This document shows positions 28,621 to 43,226 of a stretch of DNA of 64,000 nt, in pieces. The stretch covers positions 186,001-250,000 of the forward strand of contig NZ_JADOEL010000004.1 in assembly GCF_015645465.1 (NCBI RefSeq), in the 5' to 3' direction. Below the pieces are notes generated by a model. That model was not told the DNA's origin, made no database searches, and saw only the letters and a program-made list of their open reading frames with translations. The stretch's first letter is position 1. The number at the start of each line of letters is the position of its first letter. Position numbers and translations under genes: made by a program. The DNA is from Herminiimonas contaminans (GTDB taxonomy: Bacteria > Pseudomonadota > Gammaproteobacteria > Burkholderiales > Burkholderiaceae_D).

Positions 28621-28803
28621 GATGTACTCCTTCGCTGGGTAGGGGACGCTGCTTGTTCTGATTCTAGGATGACAGTGAAGCGCTTGCTTGATCCATGTCA
28701 AAAGCCCTGAATTAAGTAATCCGGAGGCGGTATATCGCGTGTGCTTGTATTTGTCGGAGTTGCAAGAGACGGATTGGTTCCGGGCTCTTGTCAGCCTGAT
28801 ATG

Positions 28804-28858: not shown

Positions 28859-31800
28859 TTACTGCGCGCTCAGGGAGTCTGCCAGCACGCGGGCGACGTG
28901 TATGGCATTTTCCTGTGTCCCGTCGGCAATTTGGTGGCGGCAGCTGGTGCCGTCGGCGACGAATAAGGTGTTTTCCTCTGCTGCGCGGATCGCCGGAAAT
29001 AGCTTGAGCTCCCCCATGGCTTGCGAAGCTTCGTAATGCTCGGCTTCATAGCCGAAGCTGCCCGCCATACCGCAACAGGATGATTCGATCAGCGCGACAT
29101 CCAGCTGCGGTATCCATTGCAATACGGTTTGTACTGGACGCACCGCATTGAAAGCTTTCTGATGACAGTGACCATGCACCATGGCCTTGCTGACGGCCAG
29201 CGGTTTCAGGTCCAGTTGCAGGCGTCCTGCCGCTTTTTCATTGACGAGGAATTCTTCAAACAGCCACGCCATGCTCGCCAGTTTCTTCGCTTCTTCGCCA
29301 TAGCCATAGCTGAGGAATTCATCGCGCAGCGATAGCAGGCAGGATGGTTCCAGGCCGACGACGGCGACGCCGCGATTGATATACGGCATCAGTGCATCGA
29401 GGGTGCGTCGTGCTTCCTGCTTCGCTTCATCGACCAGGCCTGCGGACAGATACGTACGGCCGCAGCACAGTGGACGTTCACCTTCTTTCACATTGAAATG
29501 CACGGTGTAGCCTGCCGCTTCCAATACTGCTTGTGCCGCGCGTGCATTTTCCGGTTCCATGTAATTGTTGAAGGTATCGACAAACAGCAGCACTTCCTTG
29601 TTACTACTTGCGTTCTTTTTAGGGGTGCCTAGTTGCGACAGGAAGGAAGTACGGAAGCGCGGGAAGGCGCGCTGTGGTGCCAGCCCCAGGCCCTTCTTCA
29701 ACCAGCCGGAGATGAACGGCAGTTTGTCGCCGAACGCCAGCAAGCCGCCGATGCGGCTGACATAAGGCGCGTAGCGCGGCATGAAGGCCACCATTTTTTC
29801 CCGCAGCGTGCTGCCATGACGGCTGGCCCATGCCGCGCGTGCTTCTATCTTGATCTTGGCCATGTCGACGCCGGTCGGGCAATCGCGTTTGCAGCCTTTG
29901 CACGAAACGCACAGGTCGAGCACTTCTTTCACCTCGGCACTGGCCAGTCCGTCGTCACCCAGCTGTCCCGAGATCGCGAGACGCAAGGTATTGGCACGAC
30001 CACGTGTGACGTGGCGTTCATCCTTGGTGATGCGATAGCTGGGGCACATGGTGTCTGCATCGAATTTACGGCAGTGACCATTGTTGTTGCACATCTCCAC
30101 CGCCTTGGCCAAACCGCCGGTGCGGTCATCGCCAGTGCCAGGTGCGGTTTCGACACCAGTGGCAGGATCGCGTGTGACGTCCCAGGCGGACCAATCCATT
30201 TGTGTCTTGAGCGGCAATTCGCGATAGCCGGGCGCAAAGCGGAAATTACTTTTCTCATCCATCTTCGGCGGCCGTACGATCTTGTCCGGATTGAAGCGAT
30301 TTTCCGGATCGAACAAGTCCTTGATTTCGCTGAAAGCCTGGTTGATCTTAGGCCCATATTGCCAGGACACCCATTCACCGCGGCACAAGCCGTCGCCATG
30401 CTCGCCGGAATAGGCACCTTTGTATTCGCGCACCAGGGCGGAGGCTTCTTCCGCGATCTGGCGCATATCGGCCGCACCGTTGCGACGCATGTCGAGGATA
30501 GGGCGCACGTGCAAGGTGCCGACGCTGGCATGTGCATACCACGTGCCTTCGGTATGGTATTTGTGGAAGACTTCGGTCAGGCGACTCGTGTATTCAGCCA
30601 GATGCACCAGCGGCACTGCGCAATCTTCGATGAAGGAAACCGGCTTGCCGTCACCCTTCATGCTCATCATGATGTTGAGTCCGGCCTTGCGTACATCCCA
30701 CAATGATTTTTGTTCACCGGCATCGACCATATCCACCACCGAACCCGGCAGGCTGAGATCACTCATCAGGTCGGACAGGGCCGACAGGCGCTCTACTAAC
30801 GCCGCCTTGTCATCACCTGAAAATTCCACCAGCAGGATGGCTTCCGGCGTACCGACCAGTGCTTTTTCTATCACCGGACGGAAGGCTGAATTATTCAGCG
30901 ACAGCTTGATCATGGTGCTGTCGACCAGCTCGACTGCAGTCGGCAGCAGCTTGACGATGTGCTGCGCCGAATCCATCGCCTGATAAAAGGTCGGGAAATT
31001 GATAACGCCGAGTACCTTGTGCTTAGGCAGCGGCACCAGCTTGAGTTTCAGTTGGCGACTATATGCCAGCGTGCCTTCGGAGCCGACCAGGATGTGTGCC
31101 AGGTTGGCGCTGCCATCATCAGTATAAGCGCGTGGATTCTGGCAATCGAACAAGTCGATGTTGTAGCCACCGACGCGACGCAGTACTTTAGGTACGCGTT
31201 CTACGATTTCACTTTGTTCGCGCAGGGCGATGCCGCGCAGGCCCTGCGTAATTTCCTGCAGGCGTGCGTTGCTGGCCATCTTTTCCAGTGTTTCGAAACG
31301 GCCTTGCGTGCCATCGGCGAGTACCGCATCGATGGCCAGTACGTTGTGCACCATATTGCCGTATTCAATCGAGCGCGAGCCGCAGGAGTTATTGCCGGCC
31401 ATGCCGCCTATCGTGCACTGTGCGGCGGTGGAGACATCGACCGGGAACCACAAGTTATGCGGTTTGAGCCATGCATTCAAATGATCGAGCACGATGCCGG
31501 GCTCGACGGTGACGGTGCGTGCTATCGGATCAAAGTCGATGACATTGTTCAGCCATTTGCTGTTATCGATGACCAGCGCTTCGCCTACGGTCTGGCCGCA
31601 CTGGCTGGTGCCGCCGCCACGCGCGAGGATAGGTGTTTTTTCTGAACGTGCGATGTCGAGGGCAAGCAGCAGGTCATCCTGATCGCGCGGCACCACCACG
31701 CCTATCGGCATGATTTGATAGATGGAGGCGTCGGTCGCGTAACGCCCGCGATCCGCCTTGCTGAACAATACGTCGCCTCGCAATTCCTTGCGCAAACGGC

Positions 31801-31861
31801 TGGCCAGCGGATTAGGACTACTGCCGCTTACAGGAACGAAGTGGATAGGCTTGACGAGCAT
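28859..31861 (-). CDS. FAD-linked oxidase fused to Fe-S oxidoreductase (YdiJ-like D-2-hydroxyacid dehydrogenase)
   Basis: 1000-residue fusion. An N-terminal FAD-binding type 4 domain (about 45-230, motif LARGGGTSQCGQTVG) and FAD-oxidase C-terminal domain (to about 540) are followed by a two-cluster 4Fe-4S module (CNNNGHCRKF near 590 with MCPSY, and CVSCKGCKRDCP near 647) and two CCG domains (LCCGRTYLS and SCCGMAGSFGYE). This matches YdiJ of E. coli, a GlcD-GlpC-type dehydrogenase for D-2-hydroxyacids passing electrons to the respiratory chain. The natural substrate (D-lactate, D-2-hydroxyglutarate or another) is not set by sequence. A 34-bp interrupted palindrome lies about 110 bp upstream. 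Confidence 0.9.
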   Translation of the reverse strand: MLVKPIHFVPVSGSSPNPLASRLRKELRGDVLFSKADRGRYATDASIYQIMPIGVVVPRDQDDLLLALDIARSEKTPILARGGGTSQCGQTVGEALVIDNSKWLNNVIDFDPIARTVTVEPGIVLDHLNAWLKPHNLWFPVDVSTAAQCTIGGMAGNNSCGSRSIEYGNMVHNVLAIDAVLADGTQGRFETLEKMASNARLQEITQGLRGIALREQSEIVERVPKVLRRVGGYNIDLFDCQNPRAYTDDGSANLAHILVGSEGTLAYSRQLKLKLVPLPKHKVLGVINFPTFYQAMDSAQHIVKLLPTAVELVDSTMIKLSLNNSAFRPVIEKALVGTPEAILLVEFSGDDKAALVERLSALSDLMSDLSLPGSVVDMVDAGEQKSLWDVRKAGLNIMMSMKGDGKPVSFIEDCAVPLVHLAEYTSRLTEVFHKYHTEGTWYAHASVGTLHVRPILDMRRNGAADMRQIAEEASALVREYKGAYSGEHGDGLCRGEWVSWQYGPKINQAFSEIKDLFDPENRFNPDKIVRPPKMDEKSNFRFAPGYRELPLKTQMDWSAWDVTRDPATGVETAPGTGDDRTGGLAKAVEMCNNNGHCRKFDADTMCPSYRITKDERHVTRGRANTLRLAISGQLGDDGLASAEVKEVLDLCVSCKGCKRDCPTGVDMAKIKIEARAAWASRHGSTLREKMVAFMPRYAPYVSRIGGLLAFGDKLPFISGWLKKGLGLAPQRAFPRFRTSFLSQLGTPKKNASSNKEVLLFVDTFNNYMEPENARAAQAVLEAAGYTVHFNVKEGERPLCCGRTYLSAGLVDEAKQEARRTLDALMPYINRGVAVVGLEPSCLLSLRDEFLSYGYGEEAKKLASMAWLFEEFLVNEKAAGRLQLDLKPLAVSKAMVHGHCHQKAFNAVRPVQTVLQWIPQLDVALIESSCCGMAGSFGYEAEHYEASQAMGELKLFPAIRAAEENTLFVADGTSCRHQIADGTQENAIHVARVLADSLSAQ

Positions 31862-32078: not shown

Positions 32079-33296
32079 TCACGCTGCGATTTTCAGCGGC
32101 GGAATTTTCTGTTCAGCCAGGTACTCCATTGCCGCGACTACACCGCTGCCTGCGAGTTTGACGCCTGCGATCTTCAGACCCATTTCACAGCCAGCCAGTG
32201 TCGCCATCAAGCTCAGATCATTTGCCTCACCCAGATGGCCGATGCGGAACATGCGTCCTTTCATCTTGCCGAGGCCGGTACCCAGCGACATATTGAAGCG
32301 CTCGTAGATGGTTTTGCGGATCGCATCAGCGTCGAAGCCTTCCGGTGTCATCACGCCGGTCAGGATAGGCGAGTACACGGTCGGGTCTGCGCATTGCACT
32401 TCCAGGCCCCAGGTGTTGACTGCCAGGCGGCACGCTGCAGACAGACGATCGTGGCGCGCAAAGACATTGTCCAGGCCTTCTTCCAGAATCATGTCGAGTG
32501 CTTCGTTCAGGCCGTACAGCAGGTTGGTGTTTGGTGTGTATGGCCAGTAGCCGGTTTTGTTCATCTCGATGATTTCAGTCCAGCCCCAGAATGCGCGTGG
32601 CAGTTTGGCGGTTTTGCTGGCTTCAATAGCTTTTTTCGAGACGGCATTGAAGCTGATGCCAGGTGGCAGCATCAAACCTTTTTGCGAGCCGGAGACAGTA
32701 ACGTCGACGCCCCATTCATCGTGGCGATAGTCAGCGGCAGCGAGGCCGGAGATGGTGTCTACCAGCAGCAGTGCAGGGTGCTTGGCGGCATCGATAGCTT
32801 TGCGTACTGCAGCGATATTCGAAGTCACGCCGGTCGAGGTTTCGTTATGCACGACGCAGACTGCCTTGATGGTGTGGCTGGTATCGGCACGCAGGCGTGC
32901 TTCGATTGCATCTGCCTGTACGCCGCGACGCCAGCCTTCGATACCTGGCAGGCCGATGAATTCAGGTTTGAGGCCGAGGGCCTCTGCCATTTTTTTCCAC
33001 AACGTAGCGAAGTGACCGGTTTCATACATCAGTACGGTGTCGCCAGGGCTGAGGGTATTGGTCAGTGCTGCTTCCCATGCGCCGGTACCGGAAGCAGGGT
33101 AGATCACGACAGGCTGGGTGGTTTTGAAAATCTTTTGAATGCCGGACAGAACTTGCAATCCCAGCGCGCCGAATTCAGGGCCGCGGTGGTCGATGGTAGG
33201 CAGGCTCATCGCACGCAGAATGCGGTCTGGCACAGGACTAGGACCTGGAATTTGCAAGAAATGGCGGCCCGCTGGGTGGAAGTCTAACTTCAACAT
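32079..33296 (-). CDS. Class V aminotransferase, serine/alanine/aspartate-glyoxylate type
   Basis: PLP enzyme of 405 residues that aminates glyoxylate to glycine. The PLP-binding Lys is Lys206 in VSGSQKGLMLPPG, and the Asp of LLLVDTISG (about residue 180) contacts the cofactor ring. The N-terminal PGPSPVPDRILRAM segment is typical of SgaA/AGT1-like enzymes; the same family includes BhcA, the aspartate-glyoxylate aminotransferase of the beta-hydroxyaspartate cycle. The amino donor cannot be told from sequence. A copy of the TATTGNATACAA motif lies 36-51 bp upstream, and the GntR gene is divergent, so the two may be a regulator-target pair. Confidence 0.88.
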   Translation of the reverse strand: MLKLDFHPAGRHFLQIPGPSPVPDRILRAMSLPTIDHRGPEFGALGLQVLSGIQKIFKTTQPVVIYPASGTGAWEAALTNTLSPGDTVLMYETGHFATLWKKMAEALGLKPEFIGLPGIEGWRRGVQADAIEARLRADTSHTIKAVCVVHNETSTGVTSNIAAVRKAIDAAKHPALLLVDTISGLAAADYRHDEWGVDVTVSGSQKGLMLPPGISFNAVSKKAIEASKTAKLPRAFWGWTEIIEMNKTGYWPYTPNTNLLYGLNEALDMILEEGLDNVFARHDRLSAACRLAVNTWGLEVQCADPTVYSPILTGVMTPEGFDADAIRKTIYERFNMSLGTGLGKMKGRMFRIGHLGEANDLSLMATLAGCEMGLKIAGVKLAGSGVVAAMEYLAEQKIPPLKIAA

Positions 33297-33331
33297 TTCA
33301 TTCTCCTAAGGAAACTACGCGTCAATTGAAT

Positions 33332-33347
33332 ATTGCATACAAAATAC
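33332..33347. promoter_or_regulatory. Candidate GntR/FCD operator, site 1
   Basis: TATTGCATACAAAATA, 36-51 bp before the aminotransferase start, where repression of its promoter would be easy. It matches the site before tctC at 14 of 16 positions. The core TGNATACAA resembles operators known for FadR-subfamily regulators. Confidence 0.6.
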
Positions 33348-33418
33348 TTTAGCAGAGGGTTTTTGATTAGTAAAGCCTTTTGCAGCTAAACGTGACGAAT
33401 TTGCTGAAGGTGAGATTT

Positions 33419-33559
33419 ATGTTGCCGGAATGGCTATGCGGAATCACTTTGCCGGTGGCGCGCCAGCCTTTTATGGCATTGGCTTTAGCTAGAGTTTCCG
33501 GATATATCGTTTTTATTGCCTGGCTATATGGCGCGCTGCGTCACCAGAGACACAATTAG
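33419..33559 (+). CDS. Small hydrophobic ORF (46 aa), possible citrate-synthase-family remnant
   Basis: A 46-codon frame starts at ATG 33419 with AAGGTGAG just upstream and ends at TAG 33557-33559, 33 bp before the GntR gene. The product is hydrophobic; its centre, LPVARQPFMALALARVSGYI, recalls the C-terminal segment of citrate-synthase-like proteins (P-F-x(6)-R-x-x-G-x-I), but the His and Glu that normally follow are gone. It may be a decayed fragment, a small one-span membrane protein, or chance. Confidence 0.3.
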   Translation: MLPEWLCGITLPVARQPFMALALARVSGYIVFIAWLYGALRHQRHN

Positions 33560-33584
33560 ATTAAAATAGAGTTAAATTAATTTG

Positions 33585-33600
33585 GACTTCGTATGCAAAA
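33585..33600. promoter_or_regulatory. Weak GntR/FCD operator-like site over the gntR start
   Basis: CTTCGTATGCAAAATA, whose reverse complement contains TTGCATAC as in site 1, overlaps the start codon of the GntR gene. It is the weakest of the four matches and could serve autoregulation. Confidence 0.3.
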
Positions 33601-34309
33601 TACATTGATGGATGGTGATGCAAAGATGAGTAGCCCTGACTTGCCAAGAATGGAACGTCAGCGTTTGCACGATGCAGTGGTCGAGCATTTGCAGCGGCTG
33701 ATCATTGAAGGCGTGCTGACGCCAGGCATGAAGCTGAACGAGCGTGAAGTATGCGAACGCCTTGGTATCTCGCGCACGCCTTTGCGTGAAGCGATGAAGG
33801 TGCTTGCGTCTGAAGGCTTGATAGATATCGTGCCGAATCGCGGTGCTTTCGTCTCTAAGATGAATGACACCGAGATCTGGGAAGCGTTTGAAATGATGAG
33901 TGGCCTGGAAGCCTTGTCGGGTGAGCTGGCCGCGGAGCGTATCTCGCCCGCCGAGATCGCGGACATCAAAATCTTGCACCAGGCCATGCTGGTATGTCGC
34001 TCGCAAAATGATTTGCCGGGTTATTACAGCCGTAACCAGACCATCCATAACAAGATCAATGAAGCAGCGCGCAATTCGATGCTGCGCCAGATCTATTTGT
34101 CGGTGAATCGTCGCTTGCTGGCCCTGCGCTTTAAATCCAACTTTAAAGAAGAGAAGTGGGACCGCGCGATCCATGAGCATGATGAAATGATACAGGCGCT
34201 GGAAGCACGCGACGGCAAACGTCTGGCTGGTATCTTGCGCCAGCATTTGCTCGACAAGCGTGATTCTGTCATGGCTGACCTGCGTGCAGCGAATGGCAAG
34301 GCAGCGTAA
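33593..34309 (+). CDS. GntR-family regulator, FadR/FCD subfamily
   Basis: 238 residues. An N-terminal winged helix-turn-helix (about 20-85, with LNEREVCERLGISRTPLREAMKVL) is followed by an all-helical FCD effector domain (about 95-225) with candidate metal-binding Asp/His residues (His in NQTIHNKINEAA and HEHDEMIQAL). It sits between the divergent aminotransferase and the convergent tctCBA operon. Four copies of a TGNATACAA-type motif nearby make it the likely local regulator, probably a repressor relieved by a carboxylate or amino-acid ligand. In-frame ATGs at 33608 and 33626 are alternative starts. Confidence 0.9.
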   Translation: MQNTLMDGDAKMSSPDLPRMERQRLHDAVVEHLQRLIIEGVLTPGMKLNEREVCERLGISRTPLREAMKVLASEGLIDIVPNRGAFVSKMNDTEIWEAFEMMSGLEALSGELAAERISPAEIADIKILHQAMLVCRSQNDLPGYYSRNQTIHNKINEAARNSMLRQIYLSVNRRLLALRFKSNFKEEKWDRAIHEHDEMIQALEARDGKRLAGILRQHLLDKRDSVMADLRAANGKAA

Positions 34310-34371
34310 TTAAGAGGTTCATTAGCGTATGCAAAGATATCAGCGCTGTATTTAACTGATAGCTACAAAAG

Positions 34372-34404
34372 AAAAAAGCCTGGAGAGTAATCTCCAGGCT
34401 TTTT
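34372..34404. terminator. Bidirectional Rho-independent terminator between gntR and tctA
   Basis: Perfect stem AAAGCCTGGAGA / TCTCCAGGCTTT with a GTAA loop, a T-run on the plus side and an A-run on the other. It can end both convergent transcripts. Confidence 0.9.
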
Positions 34405-34441
34405 GTTTTGGATGGGATGATACCCATCCACTGCACATCTA

Positions 34442-35950
34442 TCAGGCTGGCTTTTGGCTGGCCTGACGGAAGTTGCTGATCAAACTGCTGATGATAGGCC
34501 AGACCAGTGCAATCACAGCCAGCGTCATCACCGTGCCGACCAGGCCGCTGCCCCAGAACACGCCGAGCGCGCCTTTGGAACCCACCATGGTTTGACGGAA
34601 TGCATCTTCTGCACGATCGCCGAGTACCAGCGCCAGCACCAGCGGTGCCAATGGGTACTGCAGCTTCTTGAAGATGTAGCCGATCACACCGAACACCACC
34701 ATCAGCCAGATATCGAACTCTGCGCCGTGCACGGTATAAGCACCGATTGCACAGATCACCATGATGGATGGTGCAATGATGGAGAACGGAATGCGCAGGA
34801 TGGCTGCGAATACCGGCACTGTGCTCAGCACGACCAGCAGGCCAACGATGTTACCGAGGTACATACTGGCGATCAGGCTCCAGACAAAGTCCTTCTGTTC
34901 AACGAATAGCATAGGACCTGGTTGCAAGCCCCAGATCATCAGGCCGCCGAGCAGAACTGCGGCGGTCGCGGAGCCAGGGATGCCGAGTGCCAGCATAGGC
35001 AGGAGTGCGCTGGTACCCGCTGCATGCGCTGCAGTTTCCGGTGCCAGTACGCCTTCCATATTGCCCTTGCCGAAGGATGCCGAATCACGCGACAGCTTCT
35101 TCGCCATACCGTAGCCCATGAAGGATGCGGCAACCGCGCCGCCTGGCGTAATACCCAGCCAGCAACCGATGACCGACGAGCGCAAGAGGGTCATCCAGTA
35201 GCGAGGCATCTGTGCCCAGGTCTTGAACACGATCTTCAGGTCGATGGCTGCTTTCTTGCCCTTGAAGGCCAGGCCTTCTTCCATCGTGATCAGGATTTCG
35301 CTGACGCCAAATAAACCAATCACAGCGACCAGGAAGTCGAAGCCACGCAGCAGGTCAGGAATGTCGTAAGTCATGCGCAACTGGCCGGAGACCGTATCCA
35401 TGCCGACTGCCGCCAGCATGAAGCCGACGCACATCGAAATGATGATCTTCGCTTTTGGTTCCTTGCCCATGCCGATGAAACTGCAGAAGGTCAGGAAGTA
35501 GACCGCGAAGAATTCCGGTGGACCGAAACGCAAGGCGAACTTCGCAACCACTGGTGCGAGGAAGGTGATGACGATCACACCGAACAATGCACCTATGCAG
35601 GAACCGGTGAACGCAGATGTCAACGCTTGTCCGGCCTTGCCCTGTTGCGCCAGTGGGTAACCGTCGAAGGTAGTGGCCACTGACCACGCCTCCCCCGGTA
35701 TATTGAACAGGATGGAGGTGATGGCGCCGCCGAATAATGCGCCCCAATAAATACAGGAGAGCAGGATGATCGCGGAGGTCGGGTTCATCGAGAAGGTCAG
35801 CGGCAGCAGGATGGCGACGCCATTCGGACCGCCCAGGCCAGGGAGTACGCCGACCACGATACCAAGCAGGATGCCGATGAACATCAGCGCAATATTGTGC
35901 CAGCTGAGGACGTGGCCGAAGCCCGTCATGAGTGCGTTAAGTTCTTCCAT
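34442..35950 (-). CDS. tctA: Tripartite tricarboxylate transporter, large membrane subunit TctA
   Basis: 502-residue integral membrane protein with about 12 hydrophobic segments. The N-terminal GILLGIVVGVLPGLGGPNGVA and the later TPGGAVAASFMGY and LGIPGSATAAVLLGG segments are the paired Gly/Pro-rich signatures of TctA. It follows tctB by 9 bp and completes the tctC-tctB-tctA operon. It drives uptake of a carboxylate captured by the periplasmic TctC protein, using the ion gradient. The substrate is unknown; the neighbours point to a hydroxy- or amino-dicarboxylate. Confidence 0.95.
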   Translation of the reverse strand: MEELNALMTGFGHVLSWHNIALMFIGILLGIVVGVLPGLGGPNGVAILLPLTFSMNPTSAIILLSCIYWGALFGGAITSILFNIPGEAWSVATTFDGYPLAQQGKAGQALTSAFTGSCIGALFGVIVITFLAPVVAKFALRFGPPEFFAVYFLTFCSFIGMGKEPKAKIIISMCVGFMLAAVGMDTVSGQLRMTYDIPDLLRGFDFLVAVIGLFGVSEILITMEEGLAFKGKKAAIDLKIVFKTWAQMPRYWMTLLRSSVIGCWLGITPGGAVAASFMGYGMAKKLSRDSASFGKGNMEGVLAPETAAHAAGTSALLPMLALGIPGSATAAVLLGGLMIWGLQPGPMLFVEQKDFVWSLIASMYLGNIVGLLVVLSTVPVFAAILRIPFSIIAPSIMVICAIGAYTVHGAEFDIWLMVVFGVIGYIFKKLQYPLAPLVLALVLGDRAEDAFRQTMVGSKGALGVFWGSGLVGTVMTLAVIALVWPIISSLISNFRQASQKPA

Positions 35951-35959
35951 GTTTTTTCC

Positions 35960-36481
35960 TCAGAAGCCTAGCCAGTTTTCAATCGGACCCTTGGGCAGTG
36001 GCACCTTGAACTGGATTTCGAAAACAAAAAAGAACACCAGCATCATGATGATGGAGACACTGGCGGCTTTCCACCAAGGGAACTTGCCGAGGAAGAGCAT
36101 GAAGGCTGCGATGAAGATGACAGACGCAACATAAATGCCGAGATAGGCAATTGCGAAAACAAACACAATCAATGGCAACAAGATGACTGCGACCAGGCGC
36201 GCCTGTGCAATTTCAAGGAAGGCAGTCTGGTCGTTGTCGCGTATGGCGTGAACCAGTACGACGATGCTGGCCAGCAGGATGACGACGCCCAGTCGTAGTG
36301 GGAAGTAACCAGCATCGGGGCCGTAGGAGCTCCAGCCTGCGCCCAATTGATAGTTACTCCAGATGGTAATCAGGGATACAACGCCGAGGGTAATGGCAAC
36401 CAGGATTTCGGCGTTACGGATGGTAATCACAGCGCGAGAGTGCTCCCTCTCTTCGTCTGCGGAAGTTTCTGATGGATTCAT
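35960..36481 (-). CDS. tctB: Tripartite tricarboxylate transporter, small membrane subunit TctB
   Basis: 173 residues with four hydrophobic segments after an acidic N-terminal tail of about 25 residues (MNPSETSADEEREHSR). Poorly conserved as usual for TctB; identified mainly by size, topology and position between tctC and tctA. Gap of 76 bp from tctC. Confidence 0.85.
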   Translation of the reverse strand: MNPSETSADEEREHSRAVITIRNAEILVAITLGVVSLITIWSNYQLGAGWSSYGPDAGYFPLRLGVVILLASIVVLVHAIRDNDQTAFLEIAQARLVAVILLPLIVFVFAIAYLGIYVASVIFIAAFMLFLGKFPWWKAASVSIIMMLVFFFVFEIQFKVPLPKGPIENWLGF

Positions 36482-36557
36482 ATTCGTTAGTCCGTGATGT
36501 GGCCCAATGACGGCAACAGGGTGCTGTTGGTCATTGAGCCAGGGTGATGACGGTGAA

Positions 36558-37562
36558 TTACTTGGTGAGGAGGAAGCCTGCGTCCTTCATGATTTCGCGA
36601 TGCAGCTGCTCATCCTTTTGCAGGAATGCATTCAGCTTGTCGCCAGTCACGAATTCAGGTTTCAGCGCATTCTTTTCCAGATACGCTTTCCACTCAGGTG
36701 TGGCGATGACTTTCTGGAACAGGTCTACGTAGAACTGGGTTTGTTCCGGTTTGACGCCGCCTGGCATCATGAAAATGCGCAGCATTTCATAGCTGACATT
36801 CAGACCTTGTTCCTTGCAGGTAGGGATGTCGGACCAGGCCATAGTCGTGGTGACTTTGGCGGTATAGCCTATGCGCTTGTCGGAGAACACGCAGAGTGCA
36901 GTGTGTTCACCGGCACGCCATTGAGACACGGATTCGGATGGGTTGTTTGTGTCGGAATTGATGTGATTGCCGGACAGCTGCGTGGCTGCTTCACCGCCGC
37001 CTTTATATGGGATGTAGAGGAATTTCGCGCCGGTTTGCTTTTCGATCATCATGGTAATCATGTGATCTTCGCGCTTGGAGCTGGTACCGCCCATCTTGAA
37101 GGTTTCTGGTTTTTTCTTCACATCATCGATGTAAGCCATCGGTGTCTTGTAGCCAGCCTGGCTATTGGTCCAGAGTACGAATGCATCTTGCGCAATCATC
37201 GCGATCGGTGTCAGGTCGCGCCAGTTGAATGGCAGATTGGTAGCGAGTGGGGTGGTGTAGATGGAGGATGAAGCAACGATGATTTTGTTGGGATCGCCTT
37301 TCGCGGCTTTCAGATCCAGCAAGCCTTCTGCACCGCTGGCTCCTGCCTTGTTTTGCACGATGATGGGTTGCTTCATCAGATTGTGCTTGGTGATGATGCC
37401 CTGGATAGAGCGTGCCATCTGGTCGGATGCGCCACCGGCGCTAAACGGAACCACCAGTTCCACTGGCTTGGTCGGTTCCCATGCGGAAGCGCTGAGTGCA
37501 CAGCACATGGTGGTGACGAAGAAACCGACTTTCATCGGCTGGCGTAAGAAGTTTTTCTGCAT
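36558..37562 (-). CDS. tctC: Tripartite tricarboxylate transporter binding protein TctC (Bug family)
   Basis: 334-residue periplasmic solute receptor. Signal peptide to about residue 27 (ALSASA), then WEPTKPVELVVPFSAGGASDQMAR, the typical Bug N-terminal motif where the ligand carboxylate is held. First gene of the leftward transporter operon. A 374-bp upstream gap contains the strong operator site 2 about 190 bp before its start. Ligand specificity is not readable from sequence. Confidence 0.92.
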   Translation of the reverse strand: MQKNFLRQPMKVGFFVTTMCCALSASAWEPTKPVELVVPFSAGGASDQMARSIQGIITKHNLMKQPIIVQNKAGASGAEGLLDLKAAKGDPNKIIVASSSIYTTPLATNLPFNWRDLTPIAMIAQDAFVLWTNSQAGYKTPMAYIDDVKKKPETFKMGGTSSKREDHMITMMIEKQTGAKFLYIPYKGGGEAATQLSGNHINSDTNNPSESVSQWRAGEHTALCVFSDKRIGYTAKVTTTMAWSDIPTCKEQGLNVSYEMLRIFMMPGGVKPEQTQFYVDLFQKVIATPEWKAYLEKNALKPEFVTGDKLNAFLQKDEQLHREIMKDAGFLLTK

Positions 37563-37751
37563 GATGTTGTCTCCTGTAATTGGGTTGAAGCCCTTATTTG
37601 ACGATCTACTGCATCAGTAGCGCACAACGATGCCCGCATCTGAATTCGTTTTCAGCCGTAATGCCTTGCGTCTGACGCGCTTTTCTCATTTCGGCCCTAC
37701 TGCATGTCCTGAAAACACAGGATCGCAAATTTGCGATCTATGCATTTAGAA

Positions 37752-37767
37752 TATTGAATACAATATA
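37752..37767. promoter_or_regulatory. Candidate GntR/FCD operator, site 2
   Basis: TATTGAATACAATATA; the arms TATTG and CAATA form a perfect inverted repeat around AATA. It lies in the 374-bp divergent gap (37563-37936) between tctC and the aldolase-like gene, which otherwise is AT-rich and holds no gene. Confidence 0.6.
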
Positions 37768-37901
37768 CATTTGAGAAAAAATGTCAATTACTGGATGCGA
37801 GATGAGCAAATTTTTTTAGAAAAATTGCGTTCAGGCGTCTGGAATGGCATTTTGAGTACCAGCTTGCGCTGCGCTGGTCAGAAATATTGCTATTAAGTAA
37901 T

Positions 37902-37917
37902 TGTTTTGTATTCATTT
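37902..37917. promoter_or_regulatory. Candidate GntR/FCD operator, site 3
   Basis: TGTTTTGTATTCATTT, the reverse complement of which contains TGAATACAAAA. It ends 19 bp before the aldolase-like start codon, where binding would block transcription. Confidence 0.55.
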
Positions 37918-37936
37918 ATCTAGCCAGGAGCATCTA

Positions 37937-39079
37937 ATGAAAGACGTATCAGCCTTAAAGCCGCCACCCTTTGCCCGTATCGGGGATTCGATTTCCCTGG
38001 TCAGTACGCCCGCACTGGTACTTGATCTGGATGCTTTTGATGCGAATACCCAGCGCATGGCTGAACTGGCGCGCCGCCACGGCGTGGCGCTGCGACCGCA
38101 TGCGAAGGCGCATAAATCGACCGCAATCGCCTTGCGCCAGCTGGAGCTGGGAGCAGTCGGCGTGTGCTGCCAAAAGATGAGCGAGGCTTATCCGTTTGTG
38201 GCGAAAGGCGTGCTGAGCATCCATATCAGCAATGAATTCGTCGGTGCTGACAAGGTAGCGATGGCAGTGGAGCTGGCCAACTATGTCCGGCTCAGCGTAT
38301 GTGTAGATCATCCGGCGCAGGTAGATGCGTTGGGGCGGGCAGCGACACAGGCCGGTGTGGTGATCACCGTTTTACCGGAAGTGGATATTGGTCAGGGACG
38401 TTGCGGTGTAAAAGGCAATGATGCACTGGCGGCGCTGGTTGACCGGATCGCGCTCTATGCGGGTCTGCGCTTTGGCGGATTGCAGGCGTATCACGGTGGC
38501 ATACAACATCTGTCTACATGGGAGCAGCGCAAGGAAGCCGCTGCAAACGCTGCCCATGCGACCGCGCAGTATGTACAATTCCTGGCCGCGCGCGGTATCC
38601 AGTGCGAGGTCATCACCGGCGGTGGTACCGGTACTGCGGAATTTGATGTGAGCAGCGGTGTGTACACTGAAATCCAGCCCGGCTCATACGTATTCATGGA
38701 CGGCGATTACGGTTCCAAGGATTGGCTGGGTGGCTGGAAACCGGCGCATAGCTTATACATCGCGAGTACTGTCATGAGTACGGCCAAACCCGGGCTGGCG
38801 GTATGTGATGTAGGACTCAAGGGCGTCGCGGTGGATTCTGGTTTGCCAGTGCTGCGACCTGGCGATCATGGCGGCCATTTGCAATACAAGGCAGCGAATG
38901 ACGAACATGGCATCCTGCAAATTGCCGCCGGTGATACACAGGATTATCTCGGCAGCAGGGTCTATCTCATACCCGGACATTGTGATCCGACCGCCAACTT
39001 GTATCAGCAATACGTAGGCTATCGGCGTGATGTGGTTGAATGCATATGGGAGATAGACGCGCGCGGACTTAGTCAGTAA
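37937..39079 (+). CDS. 3-hydroxy-D-aspartate aldolase-like PLP enzyme (DSD1 / alanine-racemase fold III)
   Basis: 380 residues from ATG 37937, preceded by AGGAG at ideal spacing. The PLP-binding Lys is expected at Lys57 in RPHAKAHKS. The segments VGVCCQKMSEA, GGGTGTAEFD, QPGSYVFMDGDYG and the metal-binding PGHCDPTANLYQQYVG are those of fold-type III D-threonine aldolase / D-serine dehydratase proteins and most like the 3-hydroxyaspartate aldolases (for example BhcC) as I recall them. The predicted reaction splits 3-hydroxy-D-aspartate to glycine and glyoxylate. It is divergent from tctCBA. D-threonine aldolase activity is the main alternative. Confidence 0.83.
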   Translation: MKDVSALKPPPFARIGDSISLVSTPALVLDLDAFDANTQRMAELARRHGVALRPHAKAHKSTAIALRQLELGAVGVCCQKMSEAYPFVAKGVLSIHISNEFVGADKVAMAVELANYVRLSVCVDHPAQVDALGRAATQAGVVITVLPEVDIGQGRCGVKGNDALAALVDRIALYAGLRFGGLQAYHGGIQHLSTWEQRKEAAANAAHATAQYVQFLAARGIQCEVITGGGTGTAEFDVSSGVYTEIQPGSYVFMDGDYGSKDWLGGWKPAHSLYIASTVMSTAKPGLAVCDVGLKGVAVDSGLPVLRPGDHGGHLQYKAANDEHGILQIAAGDTQDYLGSRVYLIPGHCDPTANLYQQYVGYRRDVVECIWEIDARGLSQ

Positions 39080-39194: not shown

Positions 39195-39206
39195 ATATAG
39201 TTGTAA
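39195..39206. promoter_or_regulatory. Candidate SoxR operator, copy 1
   Basis: ATATAGTTGTAA, ending on the first base of the DUF302 lipoprotein start codon. It shares CATATAGTTRTA with the copy upstream of soxC. Binding here would block translation initiation or a promoter close to it. Confidence 0.45.
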
Positions 39207-39778
39207 TGAAAATAAATTACTGGATCAAGCTCCTGCCGCTCTGCGCCATCCTCGCCAGCCTGACTGCGTGCGGCACCCTGCGCGCCATCAACAACACGGA
39301 AGATGGCGCAGGTGCGGAAGCGATGAACGTCTGGAGCCGCTGGGTGGATGCGGACGGTGATATCGCCGCCGCCACGACCTGGGAACGCAAGGTCAAGGAT
39401 GGCGTGACGATAGCCGAAGTGGAGCAGGCGTTTACCAGTGTTGCTGCGGAAGACAATATCAAATCCGTCGGCGAATTCCATTTGTCCAAAGAGCTGTCGC
39501 TGCGTAGCGGCAAGCCAGAGAAATTCCTCAAGGTATATTCCTACTGTAGTCCCATGATAGCGCGCCAAATGGTCGACTTCAGTCCGCATATGGCGGCCTA
39601 TATGCCGTGCCGCCTGACCGTGGTCGAGAAGGATGACGGTTTGTGGATCTATGCGCTGAATATGGATATGTTGATCAAAATGGGGCGCAAGTTGCCGCCC
39701 GAACTACGCAAATCTGTCATGCAAGTGCGCGACACCATGTGGAAAATGATGGAGCGCGGGGCGTTGGGCGAATTCTGA
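39206..39778 (+). CDS. DUF302-like lipoprotein at the head of the sox region
   Basis: 190 residues. Signal peptide with lipobox SLTAC, Cys22 being lipidated. The middle-to-late segment KVYSYCSPMIARQMVDF with MPCRLTVVEKDDGLWIYAL resembles the DUF302 fold, whose members often occur near sulfur-oxidation genes. Two Cys residues remain in the mature domain (in YSYCSP and YMPCRL). No enzymatic motif is seen. It lies on the same strand as, and 111 bp before, the SoxH-like gene. Confidence 0.75.
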   Translation: MKINYWIKLLPLCAILASLTACGTLRAINNTEDGAGAEAMNVWSRWVDADGDIAAATTWERKVKDGVTIAEVEQAFTSVAAEDNIKSVGEFHLSKELSLRSGKPEKFLKVYSYCSPMIARQMVDFSPHMAAYMPCRLTVVEKDDGLWIYALNMDMLIKMGRKLPPELRKSVMQVRDTMWKMMERGALGEF

Positions 39779-39820
39779 ACAACGCTATGCGAACCGGATT
39801 TGCTTTGGTAGTATTTGCGT

Positions 39821-39832
39821 ATATAACTATAT
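39821..39832. promoter_or_regulatory. Candidate SoxR operator, copy 2
   Basis: ATATAACTATAT, the exact reverse complement of the copy upstream of soxC, 58-69 bp before the SoxH-like start. Confidence 0.55.
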
Positions 39833-39889
39833 AATTAAGTTTGATTGCCAGGCAGTACCATGCTGACCAGACAACACCGAGGAGACGAT

Positions 39890-40864
39890 ATGTTGGCTTA
39901 CCACAGGATGTGCGGCTTGCTGTTGCTTGCGTTGGCGCTATTCGGTGTGCGTACAGCGGTTGCGGCAGATGACATCACGCTGCGGCCTATCAAGATTTCC
40001 CCACATGTGTACTACTTCCAGGGTACGGCTGGCATGGCCAGTGTCGCCAACAAAGGCTTCATGTCGAACGCTGGCTTTGTCGTTACCAAGGATGGTGTTG
40101 TTGTATTTGATGCACTGGCGACGCCGGTGCTGGGCAATGCGATGCTCAAGGCCATCAAGCGCATTACGCCGCTGCCGGTCAAGCGTGTCATTATCAGTCA
40201 CTACCATGCAGATCATTTCTATGGCTTGCAGGCATTCAAGGCGCAAGGCGCCGAAGTATGGGCGCATGAAAACGGTCGTGCTGCGCTCAATTCCGACCTG
40301 ACGCAGGAGCGACTAAAGCAACGCCGTACCGACCTCGCACCATGGGTCAATGAAAAAACACAATTGATACCGGCTGATCGCTGGCTGGATTTCAAGGATG
40401 GCAAGGTCATGCCGTTTGAAATGGGTGGCATGCATTTCCGCATCATCGATTCCAGCGGAGCGCATTCGGCCGAAGACATCATGTTGTATGTGGAGGAAGA
40501 CAAAGTCCTGTTTGCCGGCGACCTGTTCTTTACCGGACGCATACCTTTTGTCGGCGAAGCGAATAGCAAGGTGTGGCTGGAAGCACTGGACCGCATGCTG
40601 GAAATGAAGCCTGCGCTGGTGGTGCCTGGTCATGGCAAAATGTCTACGCAACCCATGCAGGACATGCAGTTGACGCGTGATTACCTGATCTTCCTGCGTC
40701 AGAAAATGGGTGAGGCGGTCGCCGATATGGTGCCGTTTGAAGAAGCCTATGCAAAAGTAGACTGGGCCAGGTTTGCGAAGTATCCTGCATTTGAACAGGC
40801 GAATCGTTTAAATGCGTATGGCACCTACATATTGATGGAAAAAGAAAGCCTGGAAAAGCGTTAG
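39890..40864 (+). CDS. SoxH-like secreted metallo-beta-lactamase-fold hydrolase
   Basis: 324 residues from ATG 39890, which has GAGGAGA upstream; an ATG at 39845 would add 15 residues. Signal peptide to about residue 25 (VAA). The metal motif SHYHADHFYGLQAF (His104, His106, Asp108, His109) is intact, with a further His in SSGAHSAEDI, Asp in LFAGDLFF and His in PGHGK. This matches SoxH and the quinoprotein-relay-associated hydrolases, which may be glyoxalase II-like thioesterases. The substrate in sulfur oxidation is not known; it could hydrolyse a periplasmic thioester or persulfide adduct. Confidence 0.82.
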   Translation: MLAYHRMCGLLLLALALFGVRTAVAADDITLRPIKISPHVYYFQGTAGMASVANKGFMSNAGFVVTKDGVVVFDALATPVLGNAMLKAIKRITPLPVKRVIISHYHADHFYGLQAFKAQGAEVWAHENGRAALNSDLTQERLKQRRTDLAPWVNEKTQLIPADRWLDFKDGKVMPFEMGGMHFRIIDSSGAHSAEDIMLYVEEDKVLFAGDLFFTGRIPFVGEANSKVWLEALDRMLEMKPALVVPGHGKMSTQPMQDMQLTRDYLIFLRQKMGEAVADMVPFEEAYAKVDWARFAKYPAFEQANRLNAYGTYILMEKESLEKR

Positions 40865-40903
40865 TCTGCTACCGGCCTAAGCAGTATATAAAAGGAGATG
40901 ATG

Positions 40904-41335
40904 ATGAAACTGATACGTACAACATTCCTGCTGCTGTTCTGCGCAGTGCTCGGTACGGCGGTTGCCAATGCGGCTGACCGTGAAGAGAAAGTGGTGTATC
41001 ACATCACCGATAGTGCAATTGCGACCCAGGCATTGAATAACATCCGTAATCACCTGAACGCCAGCCCGAAAGCCAAGATTGTGGTGGTCGCGCATGGTGC
41101 AGGCATAGACTTCCTGCTGGAAGGCGCGAAGAATAAAAACGGTAATCCGTATGACATCGCCGTGCAGGAATTGACGGATCGCGATCATGTGGAATTCCGC
41201 ATTTGTAATAACACGCTGGAAACGCGCAAGATAGACAAGAAACAAGTCATACCGGAAGCCAAGATCGTTCCGTCAGGCGTGGCAGAAGTAGCGCGCCTGC
41301 AGATACAAGAAGGCTACGCTTACATCAAACCGTAG
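40904..41335 (+). CDS. Secreted DsrE/DsrF-like protein
   Basis: 143 residues; three ATGs in a row (40898, 40901, 40904) follow AAAGGAG, and the third has the best spacing. Signal peptide ends near VANA. The mature part KVVYHITDSAIATQALNNIRNHL with KIVVVAHGAGIDFLL has the DsrE-type alpha/beta pattern, and one Cys lies in FRICNNTLE, at the position of the sulfur-carrying Cys in DsrE-like proteins. A periplasmic sulfur carrier is an inference. It lies 39 bp after the SoxH-like gene on the same strand. Confidence 0.75.
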   Translation: MKLIRTTFLLLFCAVLGTAVANAADREEKVVYHITDSAIATQALNNIRNHLNASPKAKIVVVAHGAGIDFLLEGAKNKNGNPYDIAVQELTDRDHVEFRICNNTLETRKIDKKQVIPEAKIVPSGVAEVARLQIQEGYAYIKP

Positions 41336-41398
41336 TACCTGATCCTGTTTATGGATTAGGGTGTACAGATAAATTAACCAAATTAGTGGACGTGTGTT

Positions 41399-41773
41399 GT
41401 GGATAAAAATTTCAACAAAGAAGACATGAGTGAGCTCTTCGAAGAAGTAGCGAATTACTTTTCTTTGCTGTGTGAACCCACGCGCCTGAAAATCCTCTAC
41501 GCGGTCTGTAACGGTGAGCGCTCGGTAGGTGATATCGTCAATGAAGTCGAGTCGACACAGGCGAATGTTTCGCGCCAGATCAACATGCTGTACCGCGCAA
41601 AAATCCTTGCGCGTCGCAAGGAAGGCACGCAGGTTTACTACCGTGTCGATGATGAAAAGACAGTAGATTTGTGCAAAGCAGTATGCGGACGTGTAGCGGC
41701 GCAAATAGGCATGCCATCGCCGGTAGTGCAACTGCCAGTCGTGGCGCCTAAGCGACGCGTCGCCAGCAGATAA
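41399..41773 (+). CDS. soxR: ArsR-family repressor, SoxR type
   Basis: 124 residues from GTG 41399; an ATG at 41426 with AAGAAG upstream is the alternative. A winged helix-turn-helix follows the pattern SVGDIVNEVESTQANVSRQINMLYRA. Cys25, Cys37, Cys92 and Cys96 are present. The SoxR/BigR sensors known to me use a Cys pair 66 residues apart, and this protein does not have it, so its redox sensing would use another pair. Position before soxC and three nearby copies of ATATAGTTRTA support a local repressor of the sox genes. Confidence 0.82.
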   Translation: MDKNFNKEDMSELFEEVANYFSLLCEPTRLKILYAVCNGERSVGDIVNEVESTQANVSRQINMLYRAKILARRKEGTQVYYRVDDEKTVDLCKAVCGRVAAQIGMPSPVVQLPVVAPKRRVASR

Positions 41774-41816
41774 AAATAAAAAATAAAAAAACGGTGCATA
41801 TTATCCGTATATGCGC

Positions 41817-41828
41817 ATATAGTTATAT
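41817..41828. promoter_or_regulatory. Candidate SoxR operator, copy 3, upstream of soxC
   Basis: ATATAGTTATAT, flanked by GC and AG, 40-51 bp before the soxC start, in a very AT-rich gap (41774-41867). Confidence 0.55.
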
Positions 41829-41867
41829 AGGCACATAATTAAACAAAATTGCCGTAGGAGACAACGG

Positions 41868-43226
41868 ATGACTAAGGATGCAATTAAGGCAGGCCGCTTG
41901 CTGCGCGCGCCTGAAAATTTCCTGGACCCGGTAGTGGCCCAGGAAATTACAGCAAATGGCTTGAGTGAAGAGCGCAGGGGCTTCCTGCGTAAAAGTTTTC
42001 TCGCAGCGAGTGCGGCCATGGCAAGCGGTGTCACGTTTGCACAGGGCGGCGTGAGCGGTGATGGCGACCCGAATATATTGAATCTCCCCGAACATTCCAC
42101 CACGCTCGGCCAGGCCGTCGCGACTAATGGTTACGGGGTTCCTTCCAAATATGAAACCAATCTCCTGCGTCGCGAGTCGCCGGGATTGACACGCGTATCT
42201 GCGGCATCGGTTTCATTCGCGCCGCTGCAAGGCCTGTTTGGCATCATCACGCCGAGTGGTCTGCATTTCGAGCGGCATCATCAGGGATGGCACGACATCG
42301 ATCCGAGCAAGCATCGCTTCATGATCAATGGCCTGGTCAAGAATCCCAAGGTCTACACGATGGATGACTTGATGCGCCTGCCTTCGGTATCGCGCATGCA
42401 CTTCATCGAGTGCGGTGCGAATACAGCGATGGAGTGGGGCAATGTCGCGGTGCCTACCGTGCAATACTCGCATGGCATGTTGAGCTGCTGCGAATTCACA
42501 GGCGTACCGCTCTCGGTGCTGCTGGAAGATTGCGGCTACGACAAAAAGAACGGCAAATTCATCCTCGCCGAAGGTGCGGATGGATCAAGCATGACACGTA
42601 CTATCAGCATGGATAGAGCACTCGACGATGTCATCGTCGCATGGGGCATGAACGGCGAAATGCTGCGTCCGGAAAACGGTTATCCGCTGCGCCTGGTAGT
42701 CCCTGGCGTGCAGGGCGTGTCCTGGGTCAAGTGGTTGCGTCGCATCGAAGTCGGTGACAAGGAATACGGCACCAAGGATGAGGCGATCCACTACATCGAC
42801 TCCATGCCGGACGGCATGTACCGTCAGTACACCTCGATACAGGAATGCAAATCGGTGATCACCACACCGTCGGCAGGCCAAATGCTGCTGGATAAAGGCT
42901 TCTACAACATTACCGGTCTTGCATGGTCGGGGCGCGGCAAGATCAAGCGCGTCGACGTCTCCGTCGATGGCGGACGCAACTGGCGCACCGCGAGACTGGA
43001 AGGCCCGGTCAATACCAAGTGCCTGACACGTTTTAATATCAACTGGGTTTGGGATGGCTCACCAGTCGTATTGCAATCACGTGCGATAGATGAAACCGGT
43101 TATGTACAACCGAAGATCAACGAACTGCGTGCCGTGCGCGGTACGCGCTCCATCTATCACAACAACGCAATCCAATCGTGGAAAGTCTCGGAATCAGGAG
43201 AGGTGTCGAATGTACAGGTTTACTAA
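41868..43226 (+). CDS. soxC: SoxC, molybdenum subunit of sulfane dehydrogenase
   Basis: 452 residues. A Tat signal is embedded after a 35-residue leader (RRGFLRKSFLAASA, 36-49), as usual for SoxC. The sulfite-oxidase-type molybdopterin domain has the Mo-ligating Cys182 in MHFIECGANTAMEWG, followed by a dimerisation domain with RGKIKRVDVSVDGGRNW. With SoxD it oxidises the sulfane sulfur bound to SoxY, giving six more electrons per thiosulfate. TAGGAGAC precedes the ATG. Its end overlaps soxD by 17 bp. Confidence 0.95.
   Translation: MTKDAIKAGRLLRAPENFLDPVVAQEITANGLSEERRGFLRKSFLAASAAMASGVTFAQGGVSGDGDPNILNLPEHSTTLGQAVATNGYGVPSKYETNLLRRESPGLTRVSAASVSFAPLQGLFGIITPSGLHFERHHQGWHDIDPSKHRFMINGLVKNPKVYTMDDLMRLPSVSRMHFIECGANTAMEWGNVAVPTVQYSHGMLSCCEFTGVPLSVLLEDCGYDKKNGKFILAEGADGSSMTRTISMDRALDDVIVAWGMNGEMLRPENGYPLRLVVPGVQGVSWVKWLRRIEVGDKEYGTKDEAIHYIDSMPDGMYRQYTSIQECKSVITTPSAGQMLLDKGFYNITGLAWSGRGKIKRVDVSVDGGRNWRTARLEGPVNTKCLTRFNINWVWDGSPVVLQSRAIDETGYVQPKINELRAVRGTRSIYHNNAIQSWKVSESGEVSNVQVY

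Follow-up and report, generated by a model that had tools for sequence, protein, structure and literature searches.

The window, meaning the whole 64,000-nucleotide stretch of Herminiimonas contaminans DNA analyzed here, contains seven neighboring genes and two operator-like sites. Two of the genes, on the minus strand, encode an FAD/Fe-S D-2-hydroxyacid dehydrogenase (28859..31861, 1000 aa; named from Pfam, NCBIfam and PDB kin) and a class V (AGT-type) aminotransferase (32079..33296, 405 aa; Pfam Aminotran_5). The operator-like site TATTGCATACAAAA (33331..33344, plus strand) lies 35 bases before the aminotransferase start, and is followed by the gene for a GntR/FCD transcriptional regulator (33593..34309, plus strand, 238 aa; Pfam GntR and FCD). 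Next, on the minus strand, are the large membrane subunit TctA (34442..35950; Pfam TctA, 492 bits), the small membrane subunit TctB (35960..36481; Pfam TctB, 71 bits) and the solute-binding subunit TctC (36558..37562; Pfam TctC, 107 bits). All three are above their Pfam cut-offs and together make a complete tripartite tricarboxylate transporter (TTT); the TctC relatives of known structure are all distant (best 102 bits). The second operator-like site, TATTGAATACAATA (37752..37765, plus strand), is situated between tctC and the gene for a DSD1-type PLP aldolase of the D-threonine aldolase group (37937..39079, plus strand, 380 aa; Pfam Ala_racemase_N and D-ser_dehydrat). The aldolase frame opens at a TTG (37901), and its first ATG, at 37937, has AGGAG immediately upstream.

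The open reading frame list and the Pfam/NCBIfam profiles bear out the genes described in an earlier note on this locus, all of which are intact open frames of the positions and families it gave. Its boundaries (32079-39079) were drawn too early, leaving out the dehydrogenase, which lies downstream of the aminotransferase and belongs to the unit.

Conservation and spread of the gene unit

The seven genes stand side by side in every one of the 11 aldolase-bearing genomes found in the genus (the window and 10/10 others). Another genus of the same family (genome G024) has all seven together in a different order, and in a member of another family (G569) the GntR gene is divergent from an aminotransferase-dehydrogenase-aldolase-TctC-TctB-TctA series on one strand. 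The grouping claimed in the earlier note is thus real and beyond chance: it is syntenic in the ten other aldolase-bearing genus genomes, and persists, rearranged, in the two more distant ones. Caballeronia replicons carry the module with a different transporter; one stretch in Caballeronia grimmiae and Caballeronia sp. Sq4a encodes GntR, aminotransferase, an FAH-family protein, dehydrogenase, an MFS transporter, a CoA transferase and aldolase. The aminotransferase is about 7-8 kb from the aldolase, on the same strand, in 7/7 Caballeronia records with the aldolase.

Across a wider sample of 44 loci, 39 have the dehydrogenase no more than 10 kb from the aminotransferase; L093 was excluded from the neighborhood count (aminotransferase less than 60% identical), and L006 was not counted beside L027, the two probably representing the same genome. 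Many loci have the GntR-aminotransferase-dehydrogenase core without the aldolase, with TTT, MFS or TRAP transporters. No aldolase was found near the aminotransferase in any of 20 further family aminotransferase loci, and the aldolase is away from the module in 7 of the 19 aldolase-bearing family genomes. We conclude that the core (GntR regulator, aminotransferase, dehydrogenase and an exchangeable transporter) occurs as a module more widely in proteobacteria, and that some lineages have added the aldolase to it. Among other genomes, Tateyamaria has an aminotransferase relative near an HbpS-family gene, side by side with a separate bhcABCD set, and relatives in Aminobacter and Defluviimonas are within about 5-12 kb of purine-degradation genes.

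Operator-like sites and regulator

Both divergent promoters contain the motif TATTGnATACAAwA. It occurs at four places in the 4.04-Mb genome, two of which are these promoters, while a control pattern occurs at none. Within the window, three matches with at most one mismatch were found against 0.03 expected, two of the three being the two strands of one site. The aminotransferase-side site keeps its position in 10 of the 11 genus genomes, with a weaker version in the eleventh, and the tctC/aldolase site is identical in 11/11, within an invariant run of 21 bases, longer than any other in the region. Outside the genus the signal is weak, with the best site beating at least 97% of shuffles in 12 of 30 regions and falling below that in 18. 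The other two places in the genome (C17:2151 and C22:1344) are each near an open reading frame resembling, by eye, a TauE/SafE-type permease; neither is counted as a regulon member.

The regulator has no NCBIfam equivalog above its cut-off. Because the genes remain together despite rearrangement and one motif is found in both promoters, the most likely reading is that the GntR/FCD protein binds each of them, and the sequence comparisons make us highly confident of a single putative GntR-controlled regulon covering both divergent units. The same synteny and shared operator-like site lend good support to the proposal of a regulon with its own tripartite transporter.

Identity of the enzymes

The closest solved relative of the aldolase is AxDTA, the Alcaligenes xylosoxidans D-threonine aldolase (PDB 4v15, 390 bits). 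The two share 51% identity, compared with 40% to BhcC, the 3-hydroxyaspartate aldolase to which the earlier note had likened the window enzyme, and the aldolase scores 353 bits on the BhcC model (cut-off 690), where Tateyamaria BhcC scores 752. In the full tree the aldolase and AxDTA form a clade (91/99) that excludes BhcC, and in a pruned tree they form one clade at 100/100 with BhcC apart; 7dib and 7yqa, D-threonine aldolases of known structure, fall outside this clade. An AU test against joining the aldolase to BhcC gave p 0.07 with long branches kept and 0.0019 without them, the latter after dropping three rows (3wqg and L002, both on long branches, and L118), a pruning chosen once the first result had been seen. 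A further test constrained only five BhcC rows and the window enzyme to group (p about 1e-55); as this constraint tears close relatives apart, the test was rejected as unfair.

Of 47 positions distinguishing the AxDTA group from the BhcC group, the window enzyme matches AxDTA at 29, BhcC at four and neither at 14, and the letters beside the active lysine mostly follow AxDTA. The PLP lysine, the base histidine and the His/Asp metal site have the AxDTA letter at all positions checked from an excerpt of the structural paper (PMC4401734), although BhcC has the same catalytic, PLP and metal residues, and these therefore cannot separate the two. A single-sequence AlphaFold model of the aldolase (mean pLDDT 34.7) was set aside. 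Taken together, sequence and phylogeny indicate that the aldolase is likely of the D-threonine type and not a dedicated 3-hydroxyaspartate aldolase.

The best PDB match of the aminotransferase is a serine-glyoxylate aminotransferase (6pk1, 389 bits). It scores 455 bits on the BhcA model (cut-off 650; Tateyamaria BhcA, 729) and falls outside the BhcA group in a tree that carries a long-branch warning. The chances that it uses glyoxylate are about even, and the HbpS and bhc neighbors in Tateyamaria and the purine-degradation neighbors in Aminobacter and Defluviimonas count in favor.

The dehydrogenase contains FAD_binding_4, FAD-oxidase_C, Fer4_8, Fer4_17 and CCG domains, and its PDB kin are D-lactate dehydrogenase, glycolate oxidase and D-2-hydroxyglutarate dehydrogenase. 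Action on D-2-hydroxy acids is very likely. It is not GlcD, scoring 180 of 568 bits on that model. The genome encodes glcDEF outside the cluster, with a GlcD-like gene at 530 of 568 bits and adjoining GlcE and GlcF over their cut-offs; a LysR-like gene (named by eye) lies beside them. A glyoxylate carboligase gene (gcl) is also located elsewhere, and malate synthase G is absent from the genome. With glcDEF and glyoxylate carboligase encoded elsewhere, glycolate and glyoxylate metabolism need not depend on the cluster.

Proposed function and alternatives

We favor a catabolic regulon, controlled by the GntR protein, that serves the breakdown of an imported organic acid; with all of the following steps included, this is on balance probable. 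The GntR/FCD protein would bind both divergent promoters, as their shared motif suggests, and be released by the substrate or a product. From their families, TctABC would import a carboxylate, and the FAD/Fe-S enzyme would oxidize a D-2-hydroxy acid to a 2-oxo acid, with the electrons probably passing to the quinone pool. The aminotransferase would convert a 2-oxo acid, most likely glyoxylate, to an amino acid, most likely glycine, and the aldolase would cleave a D-threonine-type beta-hydroxy-D-amino acid, yielding glycine and an aldehyde, or catalyze the reverse. Class V aminotransferases are expected to yield L-amino acids or glycine. Since the aldolase type is D-specific, only glycine links the two enzymes simply, and glycine would be the metabolite that joins them.

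In the earlier note's reading, 3-hydroxyaspartate would instead enter through the transporter and be cleaved by the aldolase into glycine and glyoxylate, the latter being converted to glycine by the aminotransferase. Both enzymes do belong to the wider BhcC and BhcA families, and that much of the claimed homology stands; identity as BhcC or BhcA is supported by neither model nor tree. Glyoxylate might be accepted by the aldolase, since D-threonine aldolases take many aldehydes (PMC6485451, in part), and with long branches retained the AU test leaves some room for a BhcC link. Even so, we regard this assignment as improbable. Real BhcC and BhcA pass cut-offs that both enzymes miss by far, the trees place both elsewhere, the aldolase grouping with D-threonine aldolase, the outcome that the earlier note itself had named as refuting (the p of 0.07 being the weaker result), and the residues near the active lysine and at the other separating positions are mostly AxDTA-like. 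The dehydrogenase is left without a role. The search of the genome for bhcB and bhcD, which the earlier note had proposed, gave no BhcB over the cut-off (best match 199 bits, cut-off 550; sub-cut-off matches occur in all 14 control genomes as well) and no BhcD match at E <= 0.001. No BhcR-like match, of the IclR type, was found near the aminotransferase in module loci except in the separate bhc set of L098, and the regulator here is GntR/FCD. Nor would GntR control be new, as the note had it: GlcC of E. coli and GlcR of Paracoccus are already described, in an excerpt of PMC11323563, as GntR/FadR-type regulators of glycolate oxidase.

Equally improbable, in our judgment, is a linear pathway for an imported 2,3-dihydroxy acid (e.g., 2,3-dihydroxybutyrate or a tartrate), although family chemistry suggests that the expected product type of each enzyme is the substrate type of the next: the dehydrogenase would oxidize C2, the aminotransferase would aminate the product to a beta-hydroxy-amino acid, and the aldolase would release glycine and an aldehyde. 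In G569 these three genes follow one another directly on the same strand. However, the aminotransferase family is expected to be L-forming and the aldolase type requires D, no racemase is seen in the window's unit in the open reading frame list, and many modules have no aldolase. That last observation suits a 2-hydroxy-acid module ending at the amino acid, which would take in either glycolate (converted via glyoxylate to glycine) or some larger D-2-hydroxy acid. The aldolase would then share the regulation but have a side role, for instance removing beta-hydroxy-D-amino acids that arise from glycine and aldehydes. We consider this reading unlikely: the repeated independent placement of the aldolase in the unit (G024, G569 and Caballeronia) would lack a strong reason, and the glycolate version would be redundant with glcDEF and gcl.

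A D-threonine-aldolase-type subclade gains a firm genomic context here, through synteny and a shared operator-like site, in a defined gene unit. Its tie to that unit makes the physiological role of the aldolase a testable question; the exact physiological function of D-threonine aldolases was called largely unknown in an excerpt of the 2015 paper on the Alcaligenes enzyme structure (PMC4401734). No published account of this gene set or of the aldolase's role was found among open-licence PMC papers, which is weak evidence of absence, and the genes listed for the phenylserine dehydrogenase operon in an excerpt of PMC2963168 include no aldolase. The linear pathway, if true, would be undescribed: it would lead by a new route from a sugar-acid-like substrate used as carbon source to glycine, and assign a physiological role to a D-threonine-aldolase-type enzyme. 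The locus also cautions that adjacent BhcA-like and BhcC-like genes do not amount to a beta-hydroxyaspartate cycle.

Comparison with known systems

The aldolase resembles AxDTA in its clade, its level of identity and its identical catalytic, PLP and metal residues. It differs in that 15 of the 17 rows in its subclade lie next to the aminotransferase module, whereas the AxDTA-side rows whose surroundings were read (AxDTA itself not among them) have no link to that module. Among aldolases outside the module, 12 loci compared with crude gene calling (the aldolase frame was missed in L044) share neighbors other than the aldolase only within pairs of loci. The dehydrogenase has the layout of the D-2-hydroxyglutarate dehydrogenase YdiJ, with the FAD domain in front and Fe-S behind, but is only a distant relative (494 of 1350 bits).

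As in the GlcC and GlcR systems, a GntR/FadR-type regulator adjoins an FAD/Fe-S 2-hydroxyacid dehydrogenase; the present dehydrogenase, however, is a single fused protein, and the GntR/FCD regulator reaches only 69 of 301 bits on the GlcC model. The beta-hydroxyaspartate cycle (BhcABCD with BhcR) of Paracoccus denitrificans and other Alphaproteobacteria likewise has its class V aminotransferase and its DSD1-type PLP aldolase encoded in a single regulated cluster, and glycine, perhaps also glyoxylate, would be common metabolites. The present unit differs from it in having a GntR instead of an IclR regulator and in its added dehydrogenase and TTT transporter, and Tateyamaria carries its bhc set next to, but separate from, the aminotransferase module.

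Gene content and conservation of the unit

The unit comprises seven genes between positions 28859 and 39079, on mixed strands and with all frames intact. By Pfam and NCBIfam families they are, in order, an FAD/Fe-S dehydrogenase (28859-31861, -), a class V aminotransferase (32079-33296, -), a GntR/FCD regulator (+), the tripartite tricarboxylate-type transporter (TTT) proteins TctA, TctB and TctC (all -), and a DSD1-type PLP enzyme, the aldolase (37937-39079, +). The earlier note, which proposed a 3-hydroxyaspartate/glyoxylate catabolic regulon at 32079-39079, named these families correctly; the dehydrogenase, outside that stretch, also belongs to the unit. Next after the dehydrogenase is a universal stress protein gene (28177-28701), found there by tblastn in two of ten genus mates as well, several of the stretches stopping short of the position. 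A sulfur-oxidation stretch lies 3' of the aldolase (39206-43226; likewise in 3/10 genus mates), with a SoxC sulfite dehydrogenase above cut-off (616 vs 420 bits) and, both below cut-off, an ArsR-type regulator (BigR model) and a SoxH-related metallohydrolase.

At E <= 1e-100 the aldolase was found in 19 of 245 family genomes, 11 of them from the window's genus, and not in two further genomes of that genus. Inspection of all 19 surroundings showed the seven genes together in no more than 20 kb in 12 (the window, ten genus mates and G024, from another genus of the family); in the remaining seven the module of regulator, aminotransferase, dehydrogenase and transporter is not beside the aldolase. 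A contig scan returned a single relative, in Herminiimonas sp. KBW02 (aldolase identity 94%). Among 398 genomes sampled from the phylum, 42 including the window's own encode an aldolase relative (E <= 1e-60), and the whole set appears in one of 18 surroundings read in the others, that of G569, from another family of the order; bhcABCD is visible in two of the 18 (loci L158 and L160). The order is rearranged in G024 (TctA, TctB and TctC share a strand with the aminotransferase, with GntR, dehydrogenase and aldolase opposite) and in G569 (aminotransferase, dehydrogenase, aldolase, TctC, TctB and TctA on one strand, GntR divergent). Synteny within the genus, together with these rearranged sets, bears out a single grouped unit. 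In all seven Caballeronia aldolase records of the plasmid collection, the aminotransferase lies on the aldolase strand at a distance of about 7-8 kb; the two loci read fully contain GntR, aminotransferase, FAH-family protein, dehydrogenase, MFS transporter, CoA transferase and aldolase, one with an enoyl-CoA hydratase in addition.

An operator-like site in both divergent promoter regions

An 18-base stretch recurs, with two mismatches, in both divergent promoter regions of the window; the best of 30 single-base shuffles had three mismatches, reached in three shuffles. The operator-like pattern TATTGnATACAAwA (positions 33331 and 37752) gives three window matches with at most one mismatch, against an expected 0.03; the second and third are the two strands of one site. 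Because the pattern was derived from these two sites, only the genome count, its control and conservation count as tests. The whole genome holds it in four places, two of them the window's divergent promoters, and a control pattern in none. In the tctC/aldolase region the 14-mer is identical in 11/11 genus genomes, within a 21-base run that is the region's longest invariant one. In the aminotransferase/GntR region TATTG(C/A)ATACAAAA stands at the matching position in 10/11, with a weaker version in the eleventh, and there the longest stretch without any change, 12 bases, overlaps the site. Beyond the genus the signal weakens, the best site beating at least 97% of shuffles in 12 of 30 regions and failing to do so in 18. 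The other two genomic places (L169:2151-2164 and L170:1344-1357) are each near an ORF resembling, by eye, a TauE/SafE-type permease. We conclude from these sequence comparisons that the unit is real and conserved and is probably under joint control, as the proposed regulon supposed, with a predicted catabolic role for its enzymes.

The core module occurs without the aldolase

The aminotransferase was detected in 65 of 245 family genomes (E <= 1e-100). Surroundings were inspected for 32 of these, for L145 of G569 and for 12 plasmid-collection loci; with L093 dropped, 44 loci at aminotransferase identity of at least 60% were counted. Within 10 kb, GntR occurs in 42 and the dehydrogenase in 39; transporters are TTT (19), MFS (14), TRAP (6) or none of these (5); and FAH-family proteins (15), CoA transferases (15) and enoyl-CoA hydratases (13) recur, some companion matches being weak (~30% identity). 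These counts define a core in which regulator, aminotransferase and dehydrogenase are joined by an organic-acid transporter of interchangeable type. The aldolase is within 10 kb in 15/44, which is no measure of frequency, since 13 loci were selected via the aldolase and two Caballeronia loci with its presence already known; it is absent nearby in all 20 other family loci, which were taken from outside these selected ones. A CoA-transferase III/enoyl-CoA hydratase pair repeatedly adjoins the aminotransferase (L087:3612-5611, L100:14320-16346, L101:5820-7852), and its substrate may point to the module's carbon source. In one related module the CoA transferase most resembles succinate-hydroxymethylglutarate and formyl-CoA transferases, a resemblance that hints at a dicarboxylate and fixes nothing.

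Identity of the aldolase and aminotransferase

The aldolase had been read as a BhcC homologue acting on 3-hydroxyaspartate. Its best PDB matches are AxDTA, the D-threonine aldolase of Alcaligenes xylosoxidans (390 bits), another D-threonine aldolase (305) and BhcC (266), and it scores 353 bits on the BhcC model (cut-off 690; true BhcC 752). In the 59-row tree it groups with AxDTA (27 rows, 91/99), apart from BhcC (19 rows, 100/100). With 3wqg and L002 (both long branches) and L118 left out, support is 100/100 and 100/99, and the window subclade (17 rows, 15 adjoining the aminotransferase) has 100/99.7. The AU test against joining this subclade to BhcC gave p 0.0019 with those rows left out and 0.07 with them kept. 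Since the solved D-threonine aldolases 7dib and 7yqa belong to neither group, the name "D-threonine aldolase" does not denote a single clade. Every AxDTA residue checked from PMC4401734 is present in the window aldolase, and Tyr187 and Thr233 are kept in 15/17 and 16/17 subclade rows, in a numbering that begins one residue ahead of the true start. At 47 positions separating the two groups, the window carries the AxDTA letter at 29, the BhcC letter at 4 and another at 14. The genome carries a further DSD1-type aldolase (L156:8954-10204), which is 44% identical to the first and scores 369 of 690 on the BhcC model; window-type neighbours were not seen within the L156 stretch read.

The aminotransferase, taken less certainly for a BhcA homologue, best matches the serine-glyoxylate aminotransferase 6pk1 (389 bits) and scores 455 of 650 bits on the BhcA model. 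A true BhcA, from Tateyamaria, scores 729, and the non-Bhc aminotransferase adjoining that same bhc set 449. It falls outside a group of six (100/94) formed by four BhcA rows, 6pk1 and L093, at which, by a tool warning, long branches meet. Elsewhere in the genome the aminotransferase has a single match, a weak one (23% identity, 38 bits). Genome-wide (4.04 Mb, 56 contigs), no BhcD match and no BhcB match above cut-off was found, extending the noted absence of both from the window. The gene and tree tests here thus speak against a beta-hydroxyaspartate cycle. The unit is moderately interesting in that a D-threonine-aldolase-type enzyme gains firm genomic context.

Comparison with glycolate and glyoxylate systems

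Neighbour genes in other bacteria suggest that the aminotransferase may use glyoxylate: its relatives lie near an HbpS-family gene, which we take to be GlcG-like, and a bhc set in Tateyamaria, and about 5-12 kb from purine-degradation genes in Defluviimonas and Aminobacter. On a Tateyamaria omphalii plasmid (L098:1790-16505), a GntR/dehydrogenase/aminotransferase/TRAP module directly adjoins a separate complete bhcABCD-bhcR set. Elsewhere in the Herminiimonas genome are a glcDEF set (contig C4, 106-110 kb; GlcE and GlcF above cut-off, GlcD 530 of 568 bits) and a glyoxylate carboligase above cut-off, an intact 582-aa frame terminated by the TAA that falls within the match; a genome search found malate synthase G absent. 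Glycolate and glyoxylate are therefore probably usable independently of the window cluster. GntR control had been put forward as new. PMC11323563 describes two GntR/FadR-type regulators of glycolate oxidase, the Paracoccus GlcR and the E. coli GlcC, so control of this type is already known in this metabolic area.
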